DNA of 64,000 nucleotides. It comes from Ianthella basta (Eukaryota > Porifera > Demospongiae > Verongiida > Ianthellidae). The DNA lies in assembly GCA_964019415.1 (NCBI GenBank), contig OZ025869.1, forward strand, positions 2,679,142 through 2,743,141, in the 5' to 3' direction. How positions within the stretch are numbered: position 1 is the first letter of the stretch; each line of letters opens with the position of its first letter. Below the pieces are notes generated by a model that saw nothing but the letters and a program-made list of their open reading frames with translations, made no database searches and had not been told where the DNA came from. Both the position numbers and the translations under genes were made by a program. Of the stretch, positions 9,373-54,029 are shown one piece after another.

Positions 9373-10838
9373 TCAGTATATATAAATCTCAAGTTGTTCT
9401 ACTCCTATATTCTCCACACCAATGTAATTACGAGAACACATTCTCACTTCAATGTCATCACTCACTTCCTGGTTCAGTGTGGTAGTGAACCATGGTCCAC
9501 CTCTGTTACAACAAGTGCTCCCACTTACACACCCCTGCGAGTCCCACAGTGGATTTTCAAGATACCACTGACGCTTGTATGTTCCAGCATTCGCCGACTC
9601 ACAAAAGTAATTTTCTCCAACAAATGGAGGTGCGGAAGGACCGTGGTATAGGGAAGCACAGGGGCAAGTGGTATCATCATATCCGTGGTTATTTGATAAT
9701 GCCGCTGTAAAGGTCCAAATGTGGCTTCGAGGAGAGCCATGTGTCAGAGAAAGACCCGATACATAGGAGCTGTCCAGTGTTTTCAGACCACCAATCAAGT
9801 AGTTGTAGAAAGCAGGTGTTAAAAGTACTGGTATCCTCTGGCTCTCCCACAGACCTTAGTGTAGGGTACCCCATGTGTTGGGAAGGTGACTGAAGAACAG
9901 CTGACAGAGCCAATATGCGAACGAGTGCACATTCTGGTGGAGTTGAAGATGCTGTATGTCAATCCCTGTGGACAAGTATTGCTCGCATTAGTCATATCAA
10001 AATATGCCACTCTCCTCCACCCTACAGTAATGTTACCACAATTGTTAGTTTCCATGAGGCAGTAGACCTGTACAGCTCCTGTGGTAGTGTTGATCCAGTA
10101 GTACCCAGATGGAAGGGTAGAATTGCATTCATAGATCTCTGTGCAAGAAGTAGCAGGTATGTTCTTGGAGTTCTTGGTTTTGCAGACTAGCTGATTTCGC
10201 ACTTCCCCCAGAATGTCTCCCATAAGTTGCTCAAATATAGCATCATGTGCTGTACCAGGTGGTCCAGTAGTGCCATTCAATCCTGGTCTACCAGGTGGAC
10301 CCTGAGCTCCTGCTAGTCCTTGAAGCCCAACTGGTCCAACTGGTCCACATTCGCCGTCACTACCATTCATCCCTGATACTCCACTTGGGCCAACAGGTCC
10401 CCTTGGACCGAATGGTCCTTGCTCTCCAATGTTTCCTTTCATCCCTGGTTCACCTTGAAGGCCAGTTGGTTCCTGCTCACCAGACATTCCACTCATTCCT
10501 GGTTGCCCAGGGCTTCCAGCTGACCCCGTTTCACCCTTTGGTCCTTGAGGACCTCGTGGCCCCAGCTGTCCAGCACTACCCTTCAGTCCTGTTGGCCCCT
10601 GAAGCCCTGGAGCACCATCCAACCCATTTCTTCCATCTGCTCCGACCTCACCCTTGGGCCCAGGTTCACCAGGGGCTCCATTGTTGCCAGGTGTACCAGT
10701 GAGCACTGGAAGAGTTTGGAGCAGACACCTTTCGCCACAGACAGTCCCTGCAGCTTCTAATACTATTGAGAGGGCCATGATTACAGCCAAAACCTTGATG
10801 ACAAGAATGAATTCTGGCATCTTGCAATGCGTACACAT
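9373..10838 (-). pseudogene. Collagen-like protein A with fibrinogen-related C-terminus, frameshifted
   Basis: Single-exon gene of the local collagen-like family. It has a hydrophobic signal sequence (EFILVIKVLAVIMALSIVL) and then about 55 Gly-X-Y triplets, the longest collagen run in the cluster, from residue 48 to about 213 with one break (GEQEPTG). The cysteine-rich domain follows, with CNSTLPSGYYW, NNCGNITVGWRR and STRMCTR. The frame closes at 9819 after VCGRARGYQYF. The remainder (LSLTHGSP, CPCAS, NPLWDSQGC, STCCNRGGPWF, GVEQLEIYIY) continues in another frame from about 9810 to 9373. A one-base loss near 9812 explains this. Either it is a recent pseudogene or an assembly error. Its ETS-like site lies only about 46 bp upstream, unlike its relatives. 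Confidence 0.85.
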
Positions 10839-10883
10839 CTGTATCTGCTAATACAGTACCTTTCTGTCATTATAATGAATGTC

Positions 10884-10891
10884 ACTTCCTG
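10884..10891 (-). promoter_or_regulatory. ETS-like site upstream of collagen A
   Basis: CAGGAAGT on the minus strand, in the same GTCACTTCCTGT context seen upstream of genes B, C, D and E. The spacing to the ATG (about 46 bp) is shorter than the roughly 200 bp of the others, which suggests a deletion in this promoter. Confidence 0.4.
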
Positions 10892-10899
10892 TATAATTG

Positions 10900-11750
10900 G
10901 AGGTCTGAGTTTAAACCATTGTAGCATAGAACAGTTTGTGCTGCAGGCACCTCATACAACAACCTGCTAAATGAAAGGTGCACAGCCACTGCACAAAGAC
11001 CCTACCATACCTGCAATGTACACCATGCATGCTGTTGGCATGAGTATGACACTTCATTCTGTATCGAAACAGTCATGGAATGCTGCTTCAGTTTCACAGG
11101 CAATTGACAGATTGAAACCAATGCTGCTTCTGTTTGTGTGTGTAGTAGTCACGACATTGTTTAACGCAGTTCATTCCCTAAACCATTGTCCATTGTATTG
11201 TTGAGTAACAATGCTAATGGACAGCTGTGCATAGTGTCCACTTGCCATTAGCTATAGAACTGCACTTTCTATTTCTTTGTCACTGAATACAATGTTATAC
11301 TGCATATTGAAGAACATAATACAACCATGGGTCACATGATGTGATGCTAGACATCTGATTGGTGCTTCATAAACCGACTTCTCCAAGTATTGCTAGGTGC
11401 AGAGAACTTGCACAGAGTAGTCTAGCCAAGTCTGTTATTGTATTTATGCCATTCTTGTCACCACGTACGAGAGACAAATGATCATGACAAAAGCTTAAAG
11501 AAACCTTATGTAGTTGGTAATGTCAAAGATATGATCACGAGTTCACGACAGAGTATTCAAATGCGTATGTGGCATTCTATATATGTCTAAATCACACACG
11601 ATGCAGCACTATTTGTAAAATGGGAACACACTAGTATGATAGTTACATGTAAAGTAAAATGGGAACACACTGGTATGATAGTTACATGTAAAGTAAAATG
11701 CTGCATGCTAAAGCCACTGTTAAATCAGTCTGCACTTGTAATACTTGATC
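10900..11750. other. Spacer between collagens A and B, with a 3'-flank repeat
   Basis: No gene seen. The last 250 bp are the 3' flank of gene B and share landmarks with the 3' flanks of genes C and D (an attcaaatg..gtggcattctat block and the phrase gtgggaacacag/tgggaacacac). A 38-bp direct duplication (aaaatgggaacacactrgta...) lies at about 11616-11693. Confidence 0.6.
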
Positions 11751-12827
11751 TCAGTAGACTAGAATCTCCAGCTGCTCCACTCCAATATTTTCCAGGTTAG
11801 AGCCAAAGACATGACACATTCTCATTTCAATGTCATCACTTGCTTCCTGGTTCAGTGTAGTAGTGAACCACGGTCCTCCTCGGTTACAACAGGTACTCCC
11901 ATCCACACATCCTTGCGAGTCCCAGAGTGGATCATCAAGGTCCCACTCTGCGTCATGATATCCAGTGTCTCCCGACTCACAAAAATAGTTCTCTCCCACA
12001 AATGACTGTCCGGCAGGACCAGCGAAAGAGGCACATGGGCAGTTGCAGCAGTATGCAAAATCATAATCTTTTGACAATCCTGCAGCAAAGGTCCAGATGT
12101 GGTTTTGAGGGCTGCCGTATGTCAAAGACAGACCTGAAACATAGGCACTGTCTAGACTATTTCGGCCAAGTTGGCTACTATGGAAAGCGTAAGTATGGCC
12201 AAACTGGTACCCTCTTGCTCTTCCACAGACCTTAGTGTAGGATATCCCATGAGCTGGGAAGGTGACAGTGGAACAGAGGCCATCATTCAGTCGGGTGCAC
12301 ATCCGTGTGGAGGACACAACAGTGTAGTTCAGTCCCTGTAGGCAAACACTGTCTGAGTTAGTCATATCAATATAAGCTGCCCTCATCCATCCACCAGTGA
12401 TGTTACCACAGTTGTTGGAGTTCATTTCGCAGTAAACTCGCACTGGTCCTGTGGTAGTGTTGACCCAGTAGTACCCAGCTGGAGTGTTTGGGTTGCACTG
12501 ATAGATCTCCTTGCAGGAAGTGGCAGGGTTATTGTCAGTGATTCCTTTGCATACTAGCAGAATCCTCACTTGCTCCAGAATGTCTCCCCTCAGTTGCTCA
12601 ATGGCAGCATCAGGTACTGTACCAGGTGGGCCAGGTTCACCAGGAGCTCCATTCTTGCCAGGTTTACCGGGCAACCCTTGAACAATTGGAACAGTGTTTC
12701 TCTGGTCACAGACAGCCCCTGCTGTTTCCCCTTTAAGGAATAGGACCACAACAGAGCACAGAAGGAATAGAAGCTTGACTGCAAACATTTTGGAAGCCAC
12801 AGTGTATCCCTTGGTTGTAGCAAACAC
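11751..12827 (-). CDS. Short-chain collagen-like protein B, intact
   Basis: 358 residues in a single exon. A second Met at residue 14 (MFAVKLLFLLCSVVVLFL) gives the better signal peptide start, so the true protein may be 345 residues. After AVC the collagen part is only about seven triplets (GLPGKPGKNGAPGEPGPPG), far shorter than in A, C or D. Residues about 90-358 form the cysteine-rich fibrinogen-related domain: [81 protein letters not shown] and GVEQLEILVY. It is predicted to be secreted, possibly trimerising through the stub helix. A matrix or lectin-like role is inferred from domain type only. Confidence 0.9.
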   Translation of the reverse strand: MFATTKGYTVASKMFAVKLLFLLCSVVVLFLKGETAGAVCDQRNTVPIVQGLPGKPGKNGAPGEPGPPGTVPDAAIEQLRGDILEQVRILLVCKGITDNNPATSCKEIYQCNPNTPAGYYWVNTTTGPVRVYCEMNSNNCGNITGGWMRAAYIDMTNSDSVCLQGLNYTVVSSTRMCTRLNDGLCSTVTFPAHGISYTKVCGRARGYQFGHTYAFHSSQLGRNSLDSAYVSGLSLTYGSPQNHIWTFAAGLSKDYDFAYCCNCPCASFAGPAGQSFVGENYFCESGDTGYHDAEWDLDDPLWDSQGCVDGSTCCNRGGPWFTTTLNQEASDDIEMRMCHVFGSNLENIGVEQLEILVY

Positions 12828-13028
12828 TATTAGGGTATCAACCTTTTATTTTGAAGGATGGTGTTGATCATAATATATAGGGTAAGCTGCGCATAGCTAT
12901 AGTGTTATGGTATTAGTACAATATACGTACATTCCCTTGTATAACTATATAATAATTCTATGTGGTGTACACATTCATTACACATGTGACTTGCATGTGC
13001 AGGATATTGGGCAGTCATAATGGAGACC

Positions 13029-13036
13029 ACTTCCTG
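13029..13036 (-). promoter_or_regulatory. ETS-like site upstream of collagen B
   Basis: CAGGAAGT on the minus strand within GGAGACCACTTCCTGT, about 202 bp upstream of the ATG, the same position as in genes C, D and E. A TATATATTA sequence at 12871-12879 is a possible core promoter element. Confidence 0.45.
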
Positions 13037-13289
13037 TATTTACATCATGTATGGAGACAAGTAGAGTTACAACCTTCAACACCATATACAGTAGAACCTG
13101 TCCAAGATGGTCACTGCCACAGCCATCTCTTTAAACCAGTCAGCCTCCCTGCCACCAAAGAGCACTAACATATCTCTTAAACACTGCAGTCTACCTCTGT
13201 AATGCAATCACCTACCTGGCCCACAGGTGGCTGTCTCAGTCAACTTTAACTGTATACTGCACACACAATTCAGTGAATTGTTCCAGAAT

Positions 13290-13869
13290 GAAGGAAATGC
13301 CTATATATGAAGAAGTGATGCAGGGGGATGAATTAAGCAATGAGACAGATACCAGGATCTTGATGGAATAGACCAGGAGGGATATTGGGAAGCTAAGAAG
13401 TGACAACGCTGGACGAGTGTGTGATGTCCAAGGATGTTGAAGGTAAATAGGAGGAGAGGTGGCAGCAAAGTGGTTAGCAGCAATCTTTAATGTAGCATGG
13501 AGGACAGGAATGACACCAAAAGATTGGAGGAGAGCGATCATTTTCCCAATCCACAAGAATGGCAGTAGAAGAGTATGCAAGAACTACAGAGGGATCAGTC
13601 TGCTGTGTGCGCCTGGAAAGGTTTTTGGGAAGATCTTGAATGACAGAATGAGAAGCATAACTGAAAGGAAGATTGTGGAGGAGCAAGTGGGGTTCAGACC
13701 AGGGAGAGGCTGTGCTGAGAATATGTTTGTGATATGCCAACTTGGCGAGAAGATGCTAGAGAGAGGAGAAAAATTGTACACAGCCTTCCTGGATCTAGAG
13801 AAAGTGTATGATAGCGTTCGGAGAGCAGGAATGTGGGAGGCCTTGAAGCAGTATGGTGTACAAGGTTAG
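13290..13869 (+). pseudogene. Non-LTR reverse transcriptase fragment
   Basis: Residues from GGEVAAKWLAAIF to KQYGVQG match the N-terminal half of a LINE reverse transcriptase: DWRRAIIFPIHKNGS (region 1), YRGISLL (region 2), EEQVGFRPGRGC (region 2a) and FLDLEKVYDSV (region A; the usual KAYD is KVYD). The frame stops before the catalytic FADD box. It resembles the minus-strand LINE at 52.1-54.0 kb, so both probably belong to one clade. Truncated at both ends and non-functional. Confidence 0.85.
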
Positions 13870-13884
13870 GCTATTGAGAGCAAT

Positions 13885-14641
13885 ACAGGGTCAGTACGAA
13901 TTGAAACATTTCCTGCATTGACTGTTTTGCATGAAATGGGATAGCATAACATAGCATTCTCCTATTGAGTCTCCCATGGACTCTCCTATTCACTTAATAT
14001 TCTCATGCATGTGCGAGAAGTTTCCAGCTGCAGGTTTGAAGACGTGGTTGCCTTACAGTGAATTCACAACCCAGCGTCTCTTAGCATAGAGAGCAAGACG
14101 CTTAAACTCGCAACACTTAATTGGCATACAATATGCACTGTCATGACAGAGCTGTAAAGTTCAATTATAATTAATTTTAGCAATGATAATTATTGGCACA
14201 GCATAATTATATGTCATTCAAGACACAATGAGTGACAAAGCTTGTAATCAATGTAATGGTAAGATAAGTGAGTTCAATGCAGAATGCTCAATAGAAATGC
14301 ATAATTAACTACATATTGTGGTATTCTATGATTAATTAAAACAACGATCCATGCAGGAGCATGAATGAATCCATGAAGGGCTCTGTCTCCATTGCAGGAT
14401 AGGTAGCTAGTACACATACAACATACAAGACACAAAATTTGCATACCAGCATATTAATCAATTGTCATGGTCAAAGGCTAATTGCATTAGTATTAAATTA
14501 GCTATATAATACTACTTAATTAAAATGCAGGAGCATACTATGCTATATTTGAATGTGGGAACACAGGTATATAGCGAAGTAGTGCAATGCTGCTAAAGCT
14601 GCTGCCATGCAGATTTGCTGAGTTTCATCTCAGTAGACAAT
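13885..14641 (-). pseudogene. Relic 3' flank of a lost collagen-like gene
   Basis: This segment parallels 15420-15968, the 3' flank of collagen C: the gactctcctattcac word, the gttgccttacagtgaattca word, tgtggtattctatg and atttgaatgtgggaacacagg all occur in the same order. It ends at 14633-14641 with ctcagtagac, which is the complement of the last codons (Val-Tyr-stop) of the family. The rest of the gene is absent. A further family member therefore once lay here. Confidence 0.6.
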
Positions 14642-15354
14642 GTGCGCATCATCTGTGGTGTGCACAATAATTTGATAGATAAGGGTGACTCAGAAAGGAA
14701 TTTATGAATATGGGGAGATGAGGAAGGAGTGCTTAAGTTTGTATTCCAAGGGGTGGAGAGGGGAATATTTCAAGAGTGTGGTGATGTGTGACACCTACAA
14801 TGGAACTTCATATGGGAAGGGACCAACTTCTCAGTTCTAAAGTGCATAATTATACACAGTCCTTGCATGGTATGAGGAGGTGGGTGAAATCCCTTCAAAT
14901 GCTCAGTAAGTGAACCCATCAACCTGTGGACAAAGATGCCTGGTATACAAATGCCTATTATTATTATTATTCTACTTGCTATGATTTAAACCCTTCTCAG
15001 CCTCAAACTATAGTATATAGCTATGACATGCATGTAGTATACACATATGCAATGTTTGCATCAAGCACAGCATCTGGTGCAGGTGGTCCAAACTACCATC
15101 TGACGTGTGTGTACTACAGTATGCACATGTGCTTGTATGTATGTACACTTAAATGAATAATTATTATTATATATTGTCTGTGTATAATTCTACATGTAAA
15201 TTGCTTTGTCTGTGCATGCATACATGACATTACGGGTGGTTGAGTGTAGTCTAGCCAACGTTGCAAATGAAATTTAAGTGTGTGAGAAACTCTCTGTGAA
15301 ATTGCCTCTTTGCCTGTACACTGTCATATACTTTATATAATTATTATTCATTAT
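14642..15354. other. Spacer without a gene
   Basis: No coding signal or domain seen. There are short AT-rich runs (ttattattattat near 14958 and 15165) only. Confidence 0.5.
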
Positions 15355-15964
15355 ATGCTGTACAAAGTAAGCAGTGGTCGTGTACACTATGGTCAGGTTC
15401 ATTCCCTGAAGACTTAATGAAATTAAAACAATTCCTCCTGTGTTGATGGCATTGTATGAATAGGAAAAAAATTCCAAGTTTCCCCTGCAATGCTGCTCCC
15501 TTGAATGGTTCCCAAGGACTCTCCTATTCACCTATTCTTGGTTAACATTCATGGGTATTTCTCACATATTGTTGCCTGTAAGCGAATTCATACCTAAGCA
15601 GGTTCTGTATAGACACAGTATAGATCAGTGTATCAAGTCACAACATTTGGCATGCAATTCACTGTGACTGTATAATACTGCAGTTCAAAATGAACGGCAA
15701 TGATCTTAATAGTACAACCTGTCATTCCAGTCACACTAGTGAGAAATGACAAATTAAGGTACAGAGAAAGCCTTAAGCACACAGAAAACCTTAAAGATAT
15801 ATGTTCACTACAAACTACTCAAATGCATAATGTGGCATTCTATGCATGACAAAGACCCAATGCATGATCACACCTTATAGACTATTTGAATGTGGGAACA
15901 CAGGTATGTGCAATGCTGCAAAACCTACTACTGTAACAGTATTGTTGATTCTGCTGAAAGTGCC

Positions 15965-17218
15965 TCAGTAGACGAATATCTCCAGTTGTTCCACTCCAAT
16001 GTTTTCCAAGGTGCCCCAATGATGAGAGCACAATCTCATTTCAATGTCATCACTTGTTTCCCGGTTCAGTGTGGTAGTGAACCATGGCCCACCACGATTG
16101 CAGCAAGTACTCCCACTAGTGCATCCCTGTGAGTCCCACAAAGGGTCATTCAGCTGCCACTGATCCTCATTCGCTCCGGTGTTCCCTGATTCGCAGAAGT
16201 AGTTCTGACCAACGAATGGAGGTGAAGCAGGACCGGGATAGGGTGAAGCACAAGGGCAGTTGTGTCTGTTGTAGTTGTAGTCTTTTGACCAACCTGATGC
16301 AAAGGTCCAGATGTGATTCCGAGGACTGCCGTGTGTCACTGACAGACCTTGGACGTAGGGGTAGTTCAGAGTAGGCTGGCTAGCATAGTTGTAATTGAAG
16401 AATGCATATGTTTGGCCATATTGGTATCCCCGGGCTCTTCCGCAGACCTTAGTGTACTGTACTCCATGTGTTGGGAAGGTGGCCGAAGAGCAGGTGTACG
16501 CACTGTAAAAGTAACTTTGCAAACGGGTGCACATTCGAGTGCTGGAATAGAGTGTGTACTTGAGCCCAGTTGGGCAGGTATTACCAGCAATTGTCATATC
16601 AATGTAAGCTGCCCTCATCCATCCTCCTTTGATATCTCCACAGTTGTTGGTGTCCATCTCACAGTAAACCTGAACTGCTCCAGTGGTAGTGCTTATCCAG
16701 TAATTCCCAGATGGAGCGTGGGGGTTACTTTCATACACTGACTTGCAGGAGATAGCGGGACAGGTTTCAGTCAATCCCTTGCGCACCTCACAAATTATCT
16801 CTGTCCTCAGCTGCTGCACCTGAGTATTGGATAGTGCGCCAGGTGGTCCAGTTGGTCCCCGTGAGCCTGTTGGTCCAGCTGGTCCCCGTGAGCCTGTTGG
16901 TCCAGCTGGTCCCCGTGAGCCTGTTGGTCCAGCTGGTCCCCGTGAGCCAGTTGGTCCAGATGGTCCCTGGAGGCCCGCCGCTCCCTTCTCTCCAGCATCT
17001 CCTTTTGTTCCAGTTGGTCCCTGTGCACCGTTACTTCCATTCAGTCCAGATTCACCCGGGATTCCATTCTTACCAGGTTTTCCGGGCAGCAGTGTAATAG
17101 TTGGGAATGGAGATCTTTCTCGGCAGGCAGCCTGTGCTGCTTCTCCTCTCATCACAAAAAGGACTGTGACTGAGCTCAGAGCAAATAGGAGCTTGGCAAT
17201 GAACATGATAGATTGCAT
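15965..17218 (-). CDS. Collagen-like protein C with fibrinogen-related C-terminus, intact
   Basis: 417 residues in a single exon. There is a signal peptide (about 1-30, [18 protein letters not shown]), then Gly-X-Y repeats from about residue 45 to 133. The last part of the collagen is a 27-bp minisatellite giving four GPxGPTGSR units. The cysteine-rich domain occupies about 150-417, with [85 protein letters not shown] and GVEQLEIFVY. It is predicted to be secreted and to form homotrimers. The domain resembles fibrinogen-related and short-chain sponge collagen C-termini by its GGW and CNxGGPW motifs. Gene D is its mirror copy. Confidence 0.92.
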   Translation of the reverse strand: MQSIMFIAKLLFALSSVTVLFVMRGEAAQAACRERSPFPTITLLPGKPGKNGIPGESGLNGSNGAQGPTGTKGDAGEKGAAGLQGPSGPTGSRGPAGPTGSRGPAGPTGSRGPAGPTGSRGPTGPPGALSNTQVQQLRTEIICEVRKGLTETCPAISCKSVYESNPHAPSGNYWISTTTGAVQVYCEMDTNNCGDIKGGWMRAAYIDMTIAGNTCPTGLKYTLYSSTRMCTRLQSYFYSAYTCSSATFPTHGVQYTKVCGRARGYQYGQTYAFFNYNYASQPTLNYPYVQGLSVTHGSPRNHIWTFASGWSKDYNYNRHNCPCASPYPGPASPPFVGQNYFCESGNTGANEDQWQLNDPLWDSQGCTSGSTCCNRGGPWFTTTLNRETSDDIEMRLCSHHWGTLENIGVEQLEIFVY

Positions 17219-17366
17219 GGCAGATTCCCAGCAGCAGTAGCAGATCTAGATCTATTCACTGAAAGAGCTGCTTTGATCGTAATGAACAAATTAATTAAGG
17301 TTGTTGGTCATTCAGAGCTCGTGATAGGGTTCTGTATTCCTCTGTGGTTTCACTGAGGTATTAGTA

Positions 17367-17374
17367 CTTTTATA
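17367..17374 (-). promoter_or_regulatory. TATA box of collagen C
   Basis: TATAAAAG on the minus strand, about 150 bp upstream of the ATG. The same motif lies at the same offset in the mirror gene D (18257-18264) and in gene E (22696-22703). Confidence 0.55.
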
Positions 17375-17424
17375 CACTCTGTGCATTCAGTTGTAACAGC
17401 TAGTGAGTGTGGCTAATGGAGGTT

Positions 17425-17432
17425 ACTTCCTG
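17425..17432 (-). promoter_or_regulatory. ETS-like site upstream of collagen C
   Basis: CAGGAAGT on the minus strand within CACACAGGAAGTAACCTCC, about 207 bp upstream of the ATG and some 50 bp upstream of the TATA box. Confidence 0.5.
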
Positions 17433-17937
17433 TGTGCACTTGATTAGGGTCAGAGTACAAACCATTGTGTGTTACATAGTCTTTGTTATGCTTGAAGGTA
17501 GCCACTGTCCCTTGGCTGACCGTGCAAGTGTATATGCTGCAACATCCTGCTTATGCATGTATCCCATGTGTGCAAGTGTTCACTCTTTGCTCTTCCAAAT
17601 ATCTAATAGTTGTAGTCATCTTTGTTTAGAATCTGTTTCAGATAAATTGTTTGATTTACAATCTCATTACTTTAGTTGGTGCGCTTGTGGTTCATATTGG
17701 CATATTTCATAGTAGAATTCCCTTACTGAAGACATTTTAGTATTCATGCAGCTGCGCATGCCACACTGCATCTGTGTATTGTGCCGAATGTCTGCAGTTC
17801 CTTTTACAACCCTGCTTGCTGTATGACTGTATGGAAGCTAGCCCTCATTACATCTATGGAGCTCATCCTTTATTAGTAACATAGAATAATTATTACAAAC
17901 AAGTTTGCTATACAACCAGTTCGATTGCAGACTGGGT

Positions 17938-17978
<41 letters not shown>
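17938..17978. repeat. (GT)n microsatellite
   Basis: About 20 GT units at the centre of the palindrome spacer between genes C and D. Confidence 0.95.
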
Positions 17979-17980
<2 letters not shown>

Positions 17981-18198
17981 AGTGTTTGGCAGAAGCTGTG
18001 TGAGTATGCCAGAAGGGTGACAGAGGTCTGGCATTCGGAAGGTTGAAAACTTGGTTTTTGCTTTGGTTACAAGTCTAGTCATACTTGTGAACCACAAACC
18101 ACTGGAAAAGTAAGGAACTTATGTAATTCTCTGTTAGGTGCTAGCGCAGGTTTGTCAGCGATGCAATGGTTTGTACTCTGACCCTAATCAAGTGCACA

Positions 18199-18206
18199 CA
18201 GGAAGT
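18199..18206 (+). promoter_or_regulatory. ETS-like site upstream of collagen D
   Basis: CAGGAAGT on the plus strand, about 207 bp upstream of the gene D start. It is the mirror copy of the gene C site. Confidence 0.45.
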
Positions 18207-18256
18207 AACTTCCATTAGCCATATTTACTAGCTGTTATAACTGAATGCACAGAGTG

Positions 18257-18264
18257 TATAAAAG
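18257..18264 (+). promoter_or_regulatory. TATA box of collagen D
   Basis: TATAAAAG on the plus strand, the mirror copy of the gene C TATA box. Confidence 0.5.
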
Positions 18265-18412
18265 TACTAATACCTCAGTGAAACCACAGAGGAATACAGA
18301 ACCCTATCACGAGCTCTGAATGACCAACAACCTTAATTAATTTGTTCATTACGATCAAAGCAGCTCTTTCAGTGAATAGATCTAGATCTGCTACTGCTGC
18401 TGGGAATCTGCC

Positions 18413-19639
18413 ATGCAATCTATCATGTTCATTGTCAAGCTCTTATTTGCTCTGAGCTCAGTCACAGTCCTTTTTGTGATGAGAGGAGAAGCAGCACAGG
18501 CTGCCTGCCGAGAAAGATCTTCATTCCCAACTATTACACTGCTGCCCGGAAGACCTGGTAAAAATGGAATCCTGGGTGAACCTGGACTGAATGGAAGTAA
18601 CGGTGCACAGGGACCAAGTGGAACAAAAGGAGATGCTGGAGAGAAGGGAGCGACGGGCCTCCAGGGACCAGCTGGACCAACCGGCTCACGGGGACCAGCT
18701 GGACCAACAGGCTCACAGGGACCAGCTGGACCAACAGGCTCACGGGGACCAGCTGGACCAACAGGCTCACGGGGACCAGCTGGACCAACAGGCTCACGGG
18801 GACCAACTGGACCACCTGGTGCATTATCCAATACTCAGGTGCAGCAGCTGACGACAGAGATAATTTGTGAGGTGCGCAAGGGATTGACTGAAACCTGTCC
18901 CGCCACCTCCTGCAAGTCAGTGTATGAAAGTAACCCCCACGCTCCATCTGGGAACTACTGGATAAGCACTACCACTGGAGCAGTTCGGGTTTACTGTGAG
19001 ATGGACACCAACAACTGTGGAGATATCAAAGGAGGATGGATGAGGGCAGCTTACATTGATATGACAATTGCTGGTAATACCTGCCCAAGTGGGCTCAAGT
19101 ACACGCTCTATTTCAGCACTTGAATGTGTACCCGTTTGCAAAGTTACTTTTACAGTGCGTACACCTGCTCTTCAGCCACCTTCCCAACACATGGAGTACG
19201 GTACACTAAGGTCTGCGGTTGGTCAAAAGACTACAACTACGACAGAAACAACTGTCCTTGTGCTTTGCCCTATCCTGGTCCTGCTTCACCTCCATTTGTT
19301 GGAGAGAACTACTTCTGTGAGTCAGGGAACACTGGACTAAATGAGGATCAGTGGCAGCTGAATGACCCCTTGTGGGACTCACAGGGATGCACAAGCGGGA
19401 GTACTTGCTGCAATCGTGGTGAGCCGTGGTTCACTACTACACTGAACCAGGAAACAATTGATGACATTGAAATGAGATTGTACTCTAATCAATATGGCAC
19501 TTCGGAAAACATTGGAGTGGAACAACTTGAGATATTCGTCTACTGGCGACAGAGGCACTTTCAGAAGATTCAACAGTACTATAGTAGCTTTTGCAGCATT
19601 GCACATACCTGCATGTGTTTCCACATTCAAATAGTCTAA
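18413..19639 (+). pseudogene. Collagen-like protein D, decayed mirror copy of C
   Basis: The frame starts like gene C ([18 protein letters not shown]) and has five GPAGPTGS(R/Q) units instead of four. Three lesions separate it from C. The Arg codon CGA of STRMCTR is TGA at 19121-19123. Forty-nine residues between VCG and WSKDYNY are deleted in frame. The final stop TGA is TGG, so the frame runs on to 19639. All other cysteine-domain motifs (CTSGSTCCNRGEPWF, NIGVEQLEIFVY) are kept and the promoter is intact. It may still give a truncated 236-residue secreted collagen. Confidence 0.88.
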
Positions 19640-43199: not shown

Positions 43200-44160
43200 C
43201 AAATTGTGAAACAAGTCTGATATCAAGAGTGTGGTGTCCACTTTAATAATGTCCTCCTACCAATGTCAGGTCAAGTAGTTTTCAATGTGGCTGTGACAAT
43301 GAGTGCTGTGGAAGATCAGTAAGCTCCAACAAAGCAGTCACATAAGCGAATTTTGTCGCAGTGAAGTATAGTCAAAGCTGTACATTGGAATGTCTTGATA
43401 TTGGCCACTGTGGTCAATCCTGTGGTACAACACAATGGCATTTAAGATGCGCAGAGCTGGACTGTTGAACAAATTCTTTGTGTTAGAACGGGCAACATTC
43501 AGCAGAACAGAGTCAAAAGCCCCCAATTGTGGTTAAAATGGCCCTGCCAATTTTGTTTCTGCATAGATGGTTTTCCTCGACAAACATTAGCTCAATGGGT
43601 AGCTTTTCCAATCCTTCACAGCACCCCCTGTCATGGCCACAATGCTGACTGTGCATAATTTTGAATTCCGGTTCCTCTCATCTCAATGGTCAACCTGCGG
43701 CCAAAAGGCACGCAGCATTCTAGTTGGTCCAGCCCGAAAGCCCATTGTGACATCATGTAGGCATCTATGAATGCCAATAGCGCCTTTTCTGTCCTTCTTC
43801 AGCCAGTGACGTAATGCAAGCGCTTAGTGGATGCAAATGACGTCTAAAACAGGGAGGTAATTTTGCTCTGGATCTTGATTACCGAGAAGGTTCGCTCCTG
43901 TTGCACACTCACCATACAATATACTAGCATTAATAAAATTTATCTACTAAAACAGTAGGAATATAGGGATGGCACAAAAAGTATAGAAACAATTAAAAGC
44001 TGTTACACAGTGGGGCATTAACCATGGTCCCTGCATGCAAGAATGTCGCACCTTATAGTCCTACATTCTTGAATGTAGGGACGATGGTGAAGGTATGTAG
44101 AGAGTTTAGGGTCACCTCTCAGAATTTCCTGAATAGCTGATATATTCTTTGTACTATTCA
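43200..44160. other. Intron or spacer without a gene
   Basis: No exon, domain or clear repeat seen. Confidence 0.35.
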
Positions 44161-44173
44161 TCCTTCCTCAAAT

Positions 44174-44746
44174 TAGTCAGGCGTCGTGTGACCCCTCCTC
44201 ACGGAAGGGTCAGGTTAAGTCTAATACATTGACTTGTCCATGCAGAATGCAATTATGTGCTGTGGAATGTAATTATTGCGCAACATTATGCTTCGCTTGT
44301 GGCTGCAAGTACGTGCGATGGCTTGCGACACTTACCTGATCTTTCATAATAGCCGTCAAAGGAGCGACAGCAATGACTGTAGATGTCCCTTCGACCGGCA
44401 ACACCAGGCCGAACACTGTCGGTGGACACGCGTAGCACAGGCTCTTGCCGAAGCCAGTCGGCATAACAGCAGAAACATCCCTCACAGAAATGACGCCAGA
44501 CACGACCTGAAGCTGCTCTGGCTTCATGGTAGAATAACCAAGGTGCTGGATGGCTTCCGTCGCAGAGTATAACACTCTCTGGTCCATGCTCTGGTCTGCT
44601 GCCATTTGCAAACATGCGAGCGATAAATATTTCACACCTTTCCTGCAATCTGATTGGGCACGCAACCATTGTGGCGTGCTACACAAGTCAATGTATTGGA
44701 CTTAACCTGACCCTTCCATGAGGAGGGGTCACGTGACGCCTGACTA
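44174..44746. mobile_element. MULE-like element carrying a RecQ helicase exon
   Basis: 64-bp inverted ends with 60 matches, starting TAGTCAGGCGTC, flanked by a perfect 9-bp target duplication TCCTCAAAT (44165-44173 and 44747-44755). Long inverted repeats, a 9-bp duplication and a captured gene piece are the hallmarks of Pack-MULE elements. The interior of about 445 bp is largely a helicase exon on the minus strand and no transposase is present. The superfamily call rests on target length and TIR length only. Confidence 0.8.
44336..44604 (-). pseudogene. Captured RecQ-type helicase exon
   Basis: Reading from MAADQSMDQ: ATEAIQHLGYSTMKPEQLQ (the Q-motif region of RecQ), ISVRDVSAVMPTGFGKSLCY (Walker A with GFGKS) and VIAVAPLTAIMKDQV (motif Ia). 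The exon ends at 44336 with ATCAG followed by gtaagtg, a good splice donor, so exon plus intron start was copied as genomic DNA. The other helicase motifs are absent. Alone it cannot be a helicase, but transcription could give a spliced fusion or antisense RNA to a host RecQ gene. Confidence 0.85.
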
Positions 44747-44759
44747 TCCTCAAATGTGA

Positions 44760-51869: not shown

Positions 51870-54029
51870 TTGACATAGTTTCTCCCTGATGTCTACATTC
51901 CTTATCCTATCCAGTCTAATTACTCATTCAATCTGCCTCAAGACATCGAGTGGCTTGTACCCTAAATTGTAGATGCTTTGACAGGCACCACGTCTCACAA
52001 CCATACAATAGTGTGGGGACCATTGTCGCATTCACCACTTTCAATTTTGTGCTCCTGCTCAATTCCTTCCTCTTCAATACGGTTTTGTTCATGCCCCCAA
52101 TCACTCATGTTGCACTCCCAATCCTTGCCTTCACTTCTTTCTCCATCCTCCCATTACTACTTATTATCGCACCCAAGTACTTCATTTCATCTGCCCGATC
52201 TATTACCTCCTCACCAATTTTAACTTCACAATCCTCACTCTTCCTAGCCACCCTCATCTTCTTAGTCTTCCTCCAATTTACTTTCAACTCCAATTTGCTT
52301 AACACATCACTCATTACTTGCATATTATGCTGAGGTCCCTTCACCAATTCTGACATTACCACCATATTGTCTGCAAAGAGGAGTACTACTATATTCCCAG
52401 TAGACAACCTCACCTCACTCTGAAACTGCCTTTTTGCCTTCCTCATCACCCTGTCCATAAAGACTTTAGAAAGCCATGGAGATAGGGTACAACCCTGTCT
52501 TACACCTCTGCACACAACAAACAGCTCCGATGCCATTCTCCCAACTTTCGACCTTGTCCTCCCATCCACATACATTGCCTGTACTGCCTGAAGTAACTCC
52601 CCTTTAACCCCATACTCATCTAACACTTTCCAAATCTTCTCCCTACTTACACTGTCATATGCCTTCTGTAAGTCCACAAATGCCATGTATGTCTTCTTGT
52701 CCTTCTAAATGGTCTTCTCCACAATTTGTTTGACTGCAAAAATCTGGTCATTGCATCCCCTTCCATTCCTGAAACCTCCTTGCTCGTCCATCACTTTATC
52801 AACCATCAATTCCTTCACCCTCTCATTCAATACCTGTGCAAACATCTTGCCAACAACACTCATTAGGCAAAATTCTCCTGTAATTTGTGCATTCCAGCCT
52901 ACTGCCCTTCTTGTACACTGGCACAATCACTGCATTCTTCCATTCACTAGGGGCCACCCCCTCTCTCCAAACTATATTAAACACCTTTGCCAGCCAATCC
53001 ACCACCACTTCACCCCCTGCTTTTAACATCTCTGGTACAATCTCACAGGTCCCAGGTGCCTTTCTTGTCTTCAGCCTCTTTATCTCACTTCCTCCTTCAC
53101 TATCTCCAGATTGTCCTCCAGCATTACTTCACTGTGTTGCGCGGCCTGATAGGGTGAATCTGCTTCCTGAAATAGTCCTTCAAAATGCTCTTTCCACCTC
53201 CCTATAACGTCAATCACCTCTGACAATACTTGCCCATTCTTATCATTAATGTGTATCATACTCTCCTTCGTCCTCCTACTTTCGTTCAACCTAGCCCAGA
53301 ATCTCTGCTGATTGCCCTTAGCATCCTTTTCCAATTCCTTCCCAAATTGCACCCACTCCTCATTTTTAGCCCTTCTAACCATTCTCTCTGCCTCTAGCTT
53401 TGCCTCCTTGTACAGTTGGCAACCTATCTCTACCCCCCTCACTGCCTTGACATCGATTACCTGCTTCCTCACCTCGTTACCCACCAAGAAGTAGTCAAAG
53501 AGAGACCTGAGCCCTTTACCTTGACATTCCCACATGTATTTGTGAATTCGTTTGTGTGGGAACCATGTGTTAGAGATCCAAAGATTGTGCTCACTGCTGA
53601 ACTGTAGGAGTCTCCTCCCATTCTCATTGCACACTTCCTCACCATGCCTGCCTAGGACCTCACCCCAAATACCTGTGTCATCCCCCACTCTAGCATTCGT
53701 GTCTCCCGTTACTATCAACAGGTCACCCTGAGCCACTCTCCCCAATGCCTCCTGCAGCCTCAAGAATCCTTACTGGCCACACCACTATCATCAGTGGGCG
53801 TGTACACATGCACCAAAGACACCCAAACTCCCTCCACCTTCAGCCTAATCCACACAATTTGTTCATCTACGCACCTCCATTCCTTGAAATACCTACCAAA
53901 TCGTTCTGACAAGAAAATCGCTATACCCGCTTTTGCTCTTCCTCCCTGCACCCCTGAATACATGCATGTGGTATCACCAATCATTCGTACCCCATTCCCT
54001 CTCACCTTTGCTTCGCTCACACCTAACAC
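51870..54029 (-). pseudogene. LINE endonuclease and reverse transcriptase, frame-broken
   Basis: From 54029 down: an APE-type endonuclease (GVSEAKVRGNG near the start, LLIVTGDTNARVGDD, LFDYFLVGN), then linker, then reverse transcriptase blocks (EWKNAVIVPVYKKGS, DEQGGFRNGRGC, FVDLQKAYDSV, CRGVRQGCTLSP, LLFADNMVV, MKYLGAIIS). The catalytic box is FADN instead of FADD, and several frame changes split the ORF at 53760, 53080, 52820 and 52690. Endonuclease upstream of RT in one ORF fits an RTE/CR1-like clade. The fragment at 13290-13869 is related. Confidence 0.9.

Follow-up and report, generated by a model that had tools for sequence, protein, structure and literature searches.

A DNA transposon family of the sponge Ianthella basta with a RecQ-type helicase exon, probably acquired anciently and formerly translated

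The window analysed in this study, a stretch of 64,000 nucleotides of the Ianthella basta genome (C2:2679142-2743141), contains a short element with terminal inverted repeats (TIRs) that carries a RecQ-type helicase exon on its minus strand (Table 1). The original prediction had described a 573-bp element with 64-bp inverted ends and a perfect 9-bp target site duplication (TSD), and the window sequence confirms all three features: the arms are complementary at 60 of 64 positions, and the same 9-bp sequence lies on both flanks. An imperfect palindrome with 34-nt arms is found just upstream of the element (window 44018-44091). Elsewhere in the window, four related collagen-like ORFs (labelled by reading) are clustered at 9819-19123, which fits an animal host, and a strong GC skew of -0.49 was recorded at 52001-54000 over a region with a reverse-transcriptase-like ORF (also labelled by reading).

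Table 1 Features of the RecQ exon-bearing element in the window and of related micro-elements
Feature	Position or loci	Strand	Basis or remark
Left TSD, TCCTCAAAT	44165..44173		Identical to 44747-44755
Right TSD, TCCTCAAAT	44747..44755		Window sequence
573-bp non-autonomous TIR element	44174..44746		Among the 40 scored full-length members of its family
Left TIR, starts TAGTCAGGCGTC	44174..44237	+	64 nt, 94% complementary
Right TIR, starts TAGTCAGGCGTC on the minus strand	44683..44746	-	Inverted-repeat comparison
5'-leader-like stretch from TIR to ATG, CCAAT inside (putative promoter role)	44606..44682	-	Sequence
90-codon RecQ-type exon: start codon, Walker A TGFGKS, motif Ia, MKDQ end	44336..44605	-	Profile and PDB matches
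Splice-donor-like GTAAGT right after the exon (CAG/GTAAGT boundary)	44330..44335	-	Sequence; GTAAAC there in L082 and L148
Remnant from donor to the other TIR	44238..44329	-	About 200-250 bp more in longer copies
Micro-elements of 43-60 bp, hairpin-like, exact 9-bp TSD	L062, L075, L117, L118, L120, L124, L125, L126		

The minus-strand frame opens at an ATG (44605) and runs for 90 codons to ...IMKDQ (44336), directly before GTAAGT, and the peptide reads MAADQSMDQRV...PTGFGKS...APLTAIMKDQ. This peptide matches the RecQ profiles TIGR01389 (E = 2.5e-13) and TIGR00614 (E = 5.6e-13), as a fragment under the whole-protein cut-offs, and Pfam DEAD over the cut-off (E = 1.6e-6), with E. coli RecQ as its top PDB match (1.3e-8). 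Judged from these matches, the likeness to RecQ is not a chance one, and the proposed minus-strand exon with Walker A, motif Ia and donor is upheld. The window copy itself is most likely without function.

Searches of the 209-Mb assembly recovered numerous other copies with the same ends, as had been anticipated. The DNA search returned 271 candidates, and all 40 that were scored, including the window copy, are full length with 90-100% identity. A 26-base pattern of the end, two mismatches being allowed, occurs 276 times genome-wide, as against no occurrence of the reversed control, and the exon protein gave at least 152 matches (150 scored of 635 candidates), of which nearly all those inspected lie inside copies of the family. 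Both ends were located in 38 of 39 fetched copies (L022 has no end pair). The TSD in these 38 copies is an exact 9 bp in 21, and has one mismatch in 9, two in 4 and three to seven in 4. Every one of the 21 exact duplications has a different sequence; the copies are separate transposition events rather than one duplicated locus. With its 64-bp TIRs and 9-bp TSDs, the family does not fit Helitrons, which are not known to have either.

In the young dispersed copies, the exon decays neutrally. An alignment of 45 copies was made from the window copy, 38 of the fetched copies and six from other loci, with one locus of subfamily A (see below) entering twice, L010 being the second copy in L065. Exon changes from the consensus comprise 333 nonsynonymous, 167 synonymous and 20 stop changes, where the non-coding spectrum predicts proportions of 0.62, 0.35 and 0.03 under neutrality, and 24 of the 45 exons have neither gap nor stop. 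Changes per site per copy amount to 0.031 in the TIR, 0.046 in the leader, 0.043 in the exon and 0.057 in the intron remnant, the lower TIR value arising partly because the ends served to find the copies.

More diverged copies, with about 70-78% identity, follow the same plan as the 573-bp form, and the RecQ exon and its 5' junction are the same in old and young copies. Based on shared changes in the alignment, assigned by eye, six copies form group B (L148, L150, L080, L152, L153 and L154) and five form group C (L078, L079, L081, L146 and L145); the leader junction is identical in subfamilies A, B and C. The candidate old copies L067, L147, L149 and L151 turned out to be A-type and L082 an A-like long form, and these were excluded from B and C. 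Because the whole family has the same exon and 5' junction, the earlier description of the window element as one that "has captured" an exon is misleading for this copy.

Comparison of the subfamilies points to purifying selection on the exon between A and B. Between the A consensus and the majority of the six B copies, dN is 0.116 and dS 0.608 (ratio 0.19), and the differences are distributed as 10, 10 and 27 over the three codon positions (P = 0.0004, CpG stratified). Simulated neutral A-B change has a mean pN/pS of 0.72 as against the observed 0.26, a value as low appearing in 0 of 2000 simulations. Pooled pN/pS within A and within B is 0.63 and 0.70, respectively, which is the neutral level, and a more cautious test of A-B nonsynonymous and synonymous counts against those among copies gave Fisher P values of 0.008 (A copies) and 0.010 (B copies). 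An earlier test on differences common to at least three of four old copies gave P = 0.005, but this result, judged from its list of differences, leaned on CpG sites. L148 and L150, both in B, give a pN/pS of 0.26 between them, and group B may therefore be mixed. The A-C comparison (ratio 0.36, P = 0.06) weakly suggests constraint in the same direction. The TIRs changed at only 2 of 60 sites between A and B, compared with 17 of 72 in the leader (Fisher P = 0.0009). These patterns suggest that the function of the RecQ exon was preserved in a transposon lineage, and the simplest account of coding constraint together with near-unchanged TIRs would be an active element in which the ends and a translated RecQ exon both mattered.

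Four copies, L082 (784 bp, TSD AGTCTATCC), L080 (731 bp, TSD ATACAAACA), L145 and L153, have in common extra DNA between the exon and the right end. The post-exon sequences of L082, L148 and L154 are mutually similar, non-RecQ and intron-like, and translation of the long copies by eye beyond their acceptor-like CAG revealed no likeness to RecQ coding sequence. The intron-like sequence kept after the donor in older, longer copies argues that the exon was copied from genomic DNA, supporting the original prediction that exon and donor were copied as DNA and not from mRNA. It also supports a true intron copied as DNA, with the 573-bp form as a deletion product that probably lost about 200-250 bp. 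The apparent donor might instead be no more than three codons, Gln-Val-Ser (CAG GTA AGT), with the capture breakpoint lying within a longer exon. Such an explanation agrees with five host RecQ-like ORFs (L050, L051, L052/L054 and L056, two of them near-identical) that read through MKDQ or its counterpart with no intron and continue, for example as ...MKDQVS..., to DEAHC.K.W. It is rather unlikely, however, given that L148 of group B and the long A-like L082 have GTAAAC followed by non-RecQ, intron-like sequence at this very point.

RecQ-like loci are numerous in the host, including 10 loci with the zinc-binding domain (PF16124) and 46 matches to the segment that follows MKDQ. Among 28 RecQ-like loci compared with the exon, 18 of which are stretches picked from the 46 post-MKDQ matches, 25 match it, with a best amino acid identity of 51.4%; the alignment to host RecQ genes that had been proposed thus revealed no parent gene among these loci. 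In addition, 150 exon places, pooled from the exon searches with some second pieces of split matches excluded, were compared with 54 RecQ places, namely the 46 post-MKDQ matches and 8 of the 10 zinc-binding-domain loci; none of the exon places has a RecQ place on its strand in the 60 kb downstream. Several RecQ-like segments recur with equal scores and lengths, at C9:542051 and C5:5052181, at C13:7462676, C18:6344196, C18:6388084 and C22:3650075, and at C3:978861, C6:7519043 and C6:7532198; judged from sequence, the segments recurring on different chromosomes look as if they were mobile or recently duplicated.

A functional host RecQ gene could in principle have been the source, with its exon 1 situated between two TIRs or captured repeatedly, and with A, B and C spawned at different times. 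Constraint at the source with neutral copies would then follow, and host RecQ-like genes or pieces are indeed many (the 46 matches). However, conservation of the TIRs exceeds that of the leader and the synonymous sites, which is not expected of TIRs merely within a host gene, the same junctions in the subfamilies speak against repeated capture, and the 150 exon places, a subset of the copies, have no RecQ place close by on the downstream side. We regard a host-gene source as very unlikely. An ordinary Pack-TIR or Pack-MULE, in which gap filling or fork switching copied exon 1 from a host RecQ gene a single time and an inert chimera then multiplied, the exon never having had a role in the element, would account for a non-autonomous element with TIR and TSD, for a genomic fragment with its donor and for neutrality within young copies, and this process is known in animals according to the accessible part of a published survey (PMC8277862). 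Such an origin is nevertheless unlikely in view of the coding constraint between A and B, which have TIR, junction and leader in common, and of the lack of a parent gene above 51% amino acid identity among the 28 loci.

We favour, with a probability of about 0.7, a non-autonomous DNA transposon family with an anciently acquired RecQ exon that was formerly translated in an active source lineage. The element would be moved in trans by a transposase that recognises ends starting with TAGTCAGGCGTC and makes 9-bp duplications. A RecQ first exon would have joined the family once, long ago, bringing along its leader, its donor and some of the intron, and the source lineage would have been an active TIR element in which translation of the exon persisted, probably within a longer RecQ helicase gene. 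Internal deletion would have given rise to the 573-bp form before it spread.

The hairpin copies of 43-60 bp may derive from additional internal deletions, for which gap repair that was aborted following excision is a plausible cause. Fifteen end pairs less than 75 bp apart were read; they span 36-60 bp, most form near-perfect hairpins, and eight have an exact 9-bp TSD (Table 1) and little beyond the two ends. A strict micro-element pattern was found at 8 loci genome-wide and at none in the control, and one 58-mer has a predicted fold of -36.1 kcal/mol (z = -12). Since the centres of the micro-elements differ between sites, they would represent independent internal deletions, not an amplified family. 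A different rearrangement was noticed at L108 (C3:2562300-2563450), near the copy at C3:2563445, where a 24-bp inverted duplication with an 8-bp spacer spans flank and end of an element, possibly as the scar of an aberrant event.

The 13 loci with a MULE domain (PF10551) have within about 1.5 kb, some stretches of which are masked (N), only 10-base look-alikes of the ends with two mismatches, and none of these extends into the longer end of the RecQ element. The ends of the best-preserved MULE among them differ from those of the RecQ element. One MULE copy has the end ACGCGCGACTAGAGACAGG and, by reading, an 8-bp TSD; the MULE-domain elements L089, L087, L088 and L090 (C2, C5) have inverted ends containing CGCGCGACTAGAGACAGGAACACC, and the flank GTCTCTAG is readable at both sides of L089. 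No transposase was present in 20 surveyed end regions, mostly odd-spaced and drawn from 100 listed of the 276 end places, nor at 33 of 43 ends with differing inner sequence that were read, and the places inspected contained no full-length RecQ-bearing element with these ends; the assembly may lack an autonomous partner. The longer-spaced pairs L058, L070, L072, L076 and L077 were rejected as autonomous partners, their extra DNA reading as other inserted sequence, and the tail of L145, considered as a transposase source, matches other repeat families. Copies with the same ends and different cargo, another expectation of the original prediction, gave no clear case among the places read, the candidates L066 and L073 being broken micro-elements by reading. 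At L107 (C13:2240700-2241900, TIR at 124), a short ORF that looks secreted and has no Pfam match is preceded by a lone element end, which starts some 140 bp before the ATG; this end could be a remnant lying in a promoter or belong to another gene-bearing element. The insert at L058 (about 4535-5555 in C9:3868000-3877999) is about 1 kb long and nested in a RecQ element, with ends TGTCACAGG...CCTGTGACA and CCGG on both sides (by reading), and carries a PHD-finger ORF (PF00628, 7.7e-8); its ends and target presumably resemble those of Ginger-type transposons.

The favoured transposon family may descend from a TIR transposon, autonomous or a helper, that made 9-bp TSDs and had its own, transposon-selected RecQ-type helicase, with exon 1 just inside the 5' end and with the 573-bp and hairpin copies as deletion derivatives. 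We put forward this descent, with an autonomous element encoding RecQ as a plausible but unproven source, tentatively and at somewhat below even odds. The substrates of RecQ helicases include broken DNA and hairpins such as are left behind by cut-and-paste transposition, and a transposon-encoded RecQ would therefore offer a direct way to study how such elements repair their own gaps.

Among known systems, MITEs are likewise short, non-autonomous, internally deleted, high-copy elements with TIRs and TSDs, whereas the RecQ family retains a recognisable helicase exon, free of gaps and stops in the 24 copies noted above. The accessible parts of the literature on sponge MITEs and DNA transposons, on RecQ in transposons and on Pack-TIRs describe no RecQ-exon TIR family in an animal. 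Mutator-like elements make TSDs of 8-11 bp according to the available text of PMC6446971, a range that includes the exact 9 bp of the window copy and of 21 of 38 copies, with 9 more copies at one mismatch. The Pack-MULE interpretation first proposed is thus consistent with the 9-bp TSD and the long TIR, but MULE membership of the 573-bp family is unproven, and no MULE transposase was tied to its ends at the 13 PF10551 loci. Plant Pack-MULEs and the fly Pack-MULE Ssk-FB4 of Drosophila similarly have long TIRs, a 9-bp TSD and a gene fragment with its upstream part, although the TIR is about 64 bp in the RecQ family and about 700 bp in FB4, and the survey, as far as its text is accessible, lists no Pack-MULE in reference genomes (PMC8277862).

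The same survey, in its accessible part, reports 370 Pack-TIRs in 100 animals, mostly of hAT and Tc/mariner type, and only four (1.4%) are multicopy, one example being a frog Pack-TIR on three chromosomes (Tan et al. 2021, PMC8277862). Like these, the RecQ family is a TIR element with a piece of a cellular, non-TE gene between its ends and with a distinct TSD in each copy; unlike them, it has 276 matches to its end and 40 full copies among those scored, together with old subfamilies and a source that appears to have been constrained in its coding sequence, and its parent gene was not found among the 28 RecQ-like loci compared. As nearly all animal Pack-TIRs in the available survey data are single-copy, the many-copy RecQ family stands out. 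A RecQ helicase in a DNA transposon has a precedent, since KolobokH and Kolobok-1_CCri encode one as an accessory protein; KolobokH is reported from fungi only in the accessible text, and the TSD of Kolobok is the 4-bp TTAA (PMC9587614). The RecQ family differs in its 9-bp TSDs of varied sequence and its TAG...CTA ends, with no transposase seen at the places inspected. A RecQ-encoding source, if true, would be an animal counterpart, with 9-bp TSDs, of the fungal RecQ-encoding KolobokH. The 276 end matches, the old subfamilies and the apparently constrained exon suggest that a captured exon was unusually successful or else that a RecQ helicase was recruited by a transposon.
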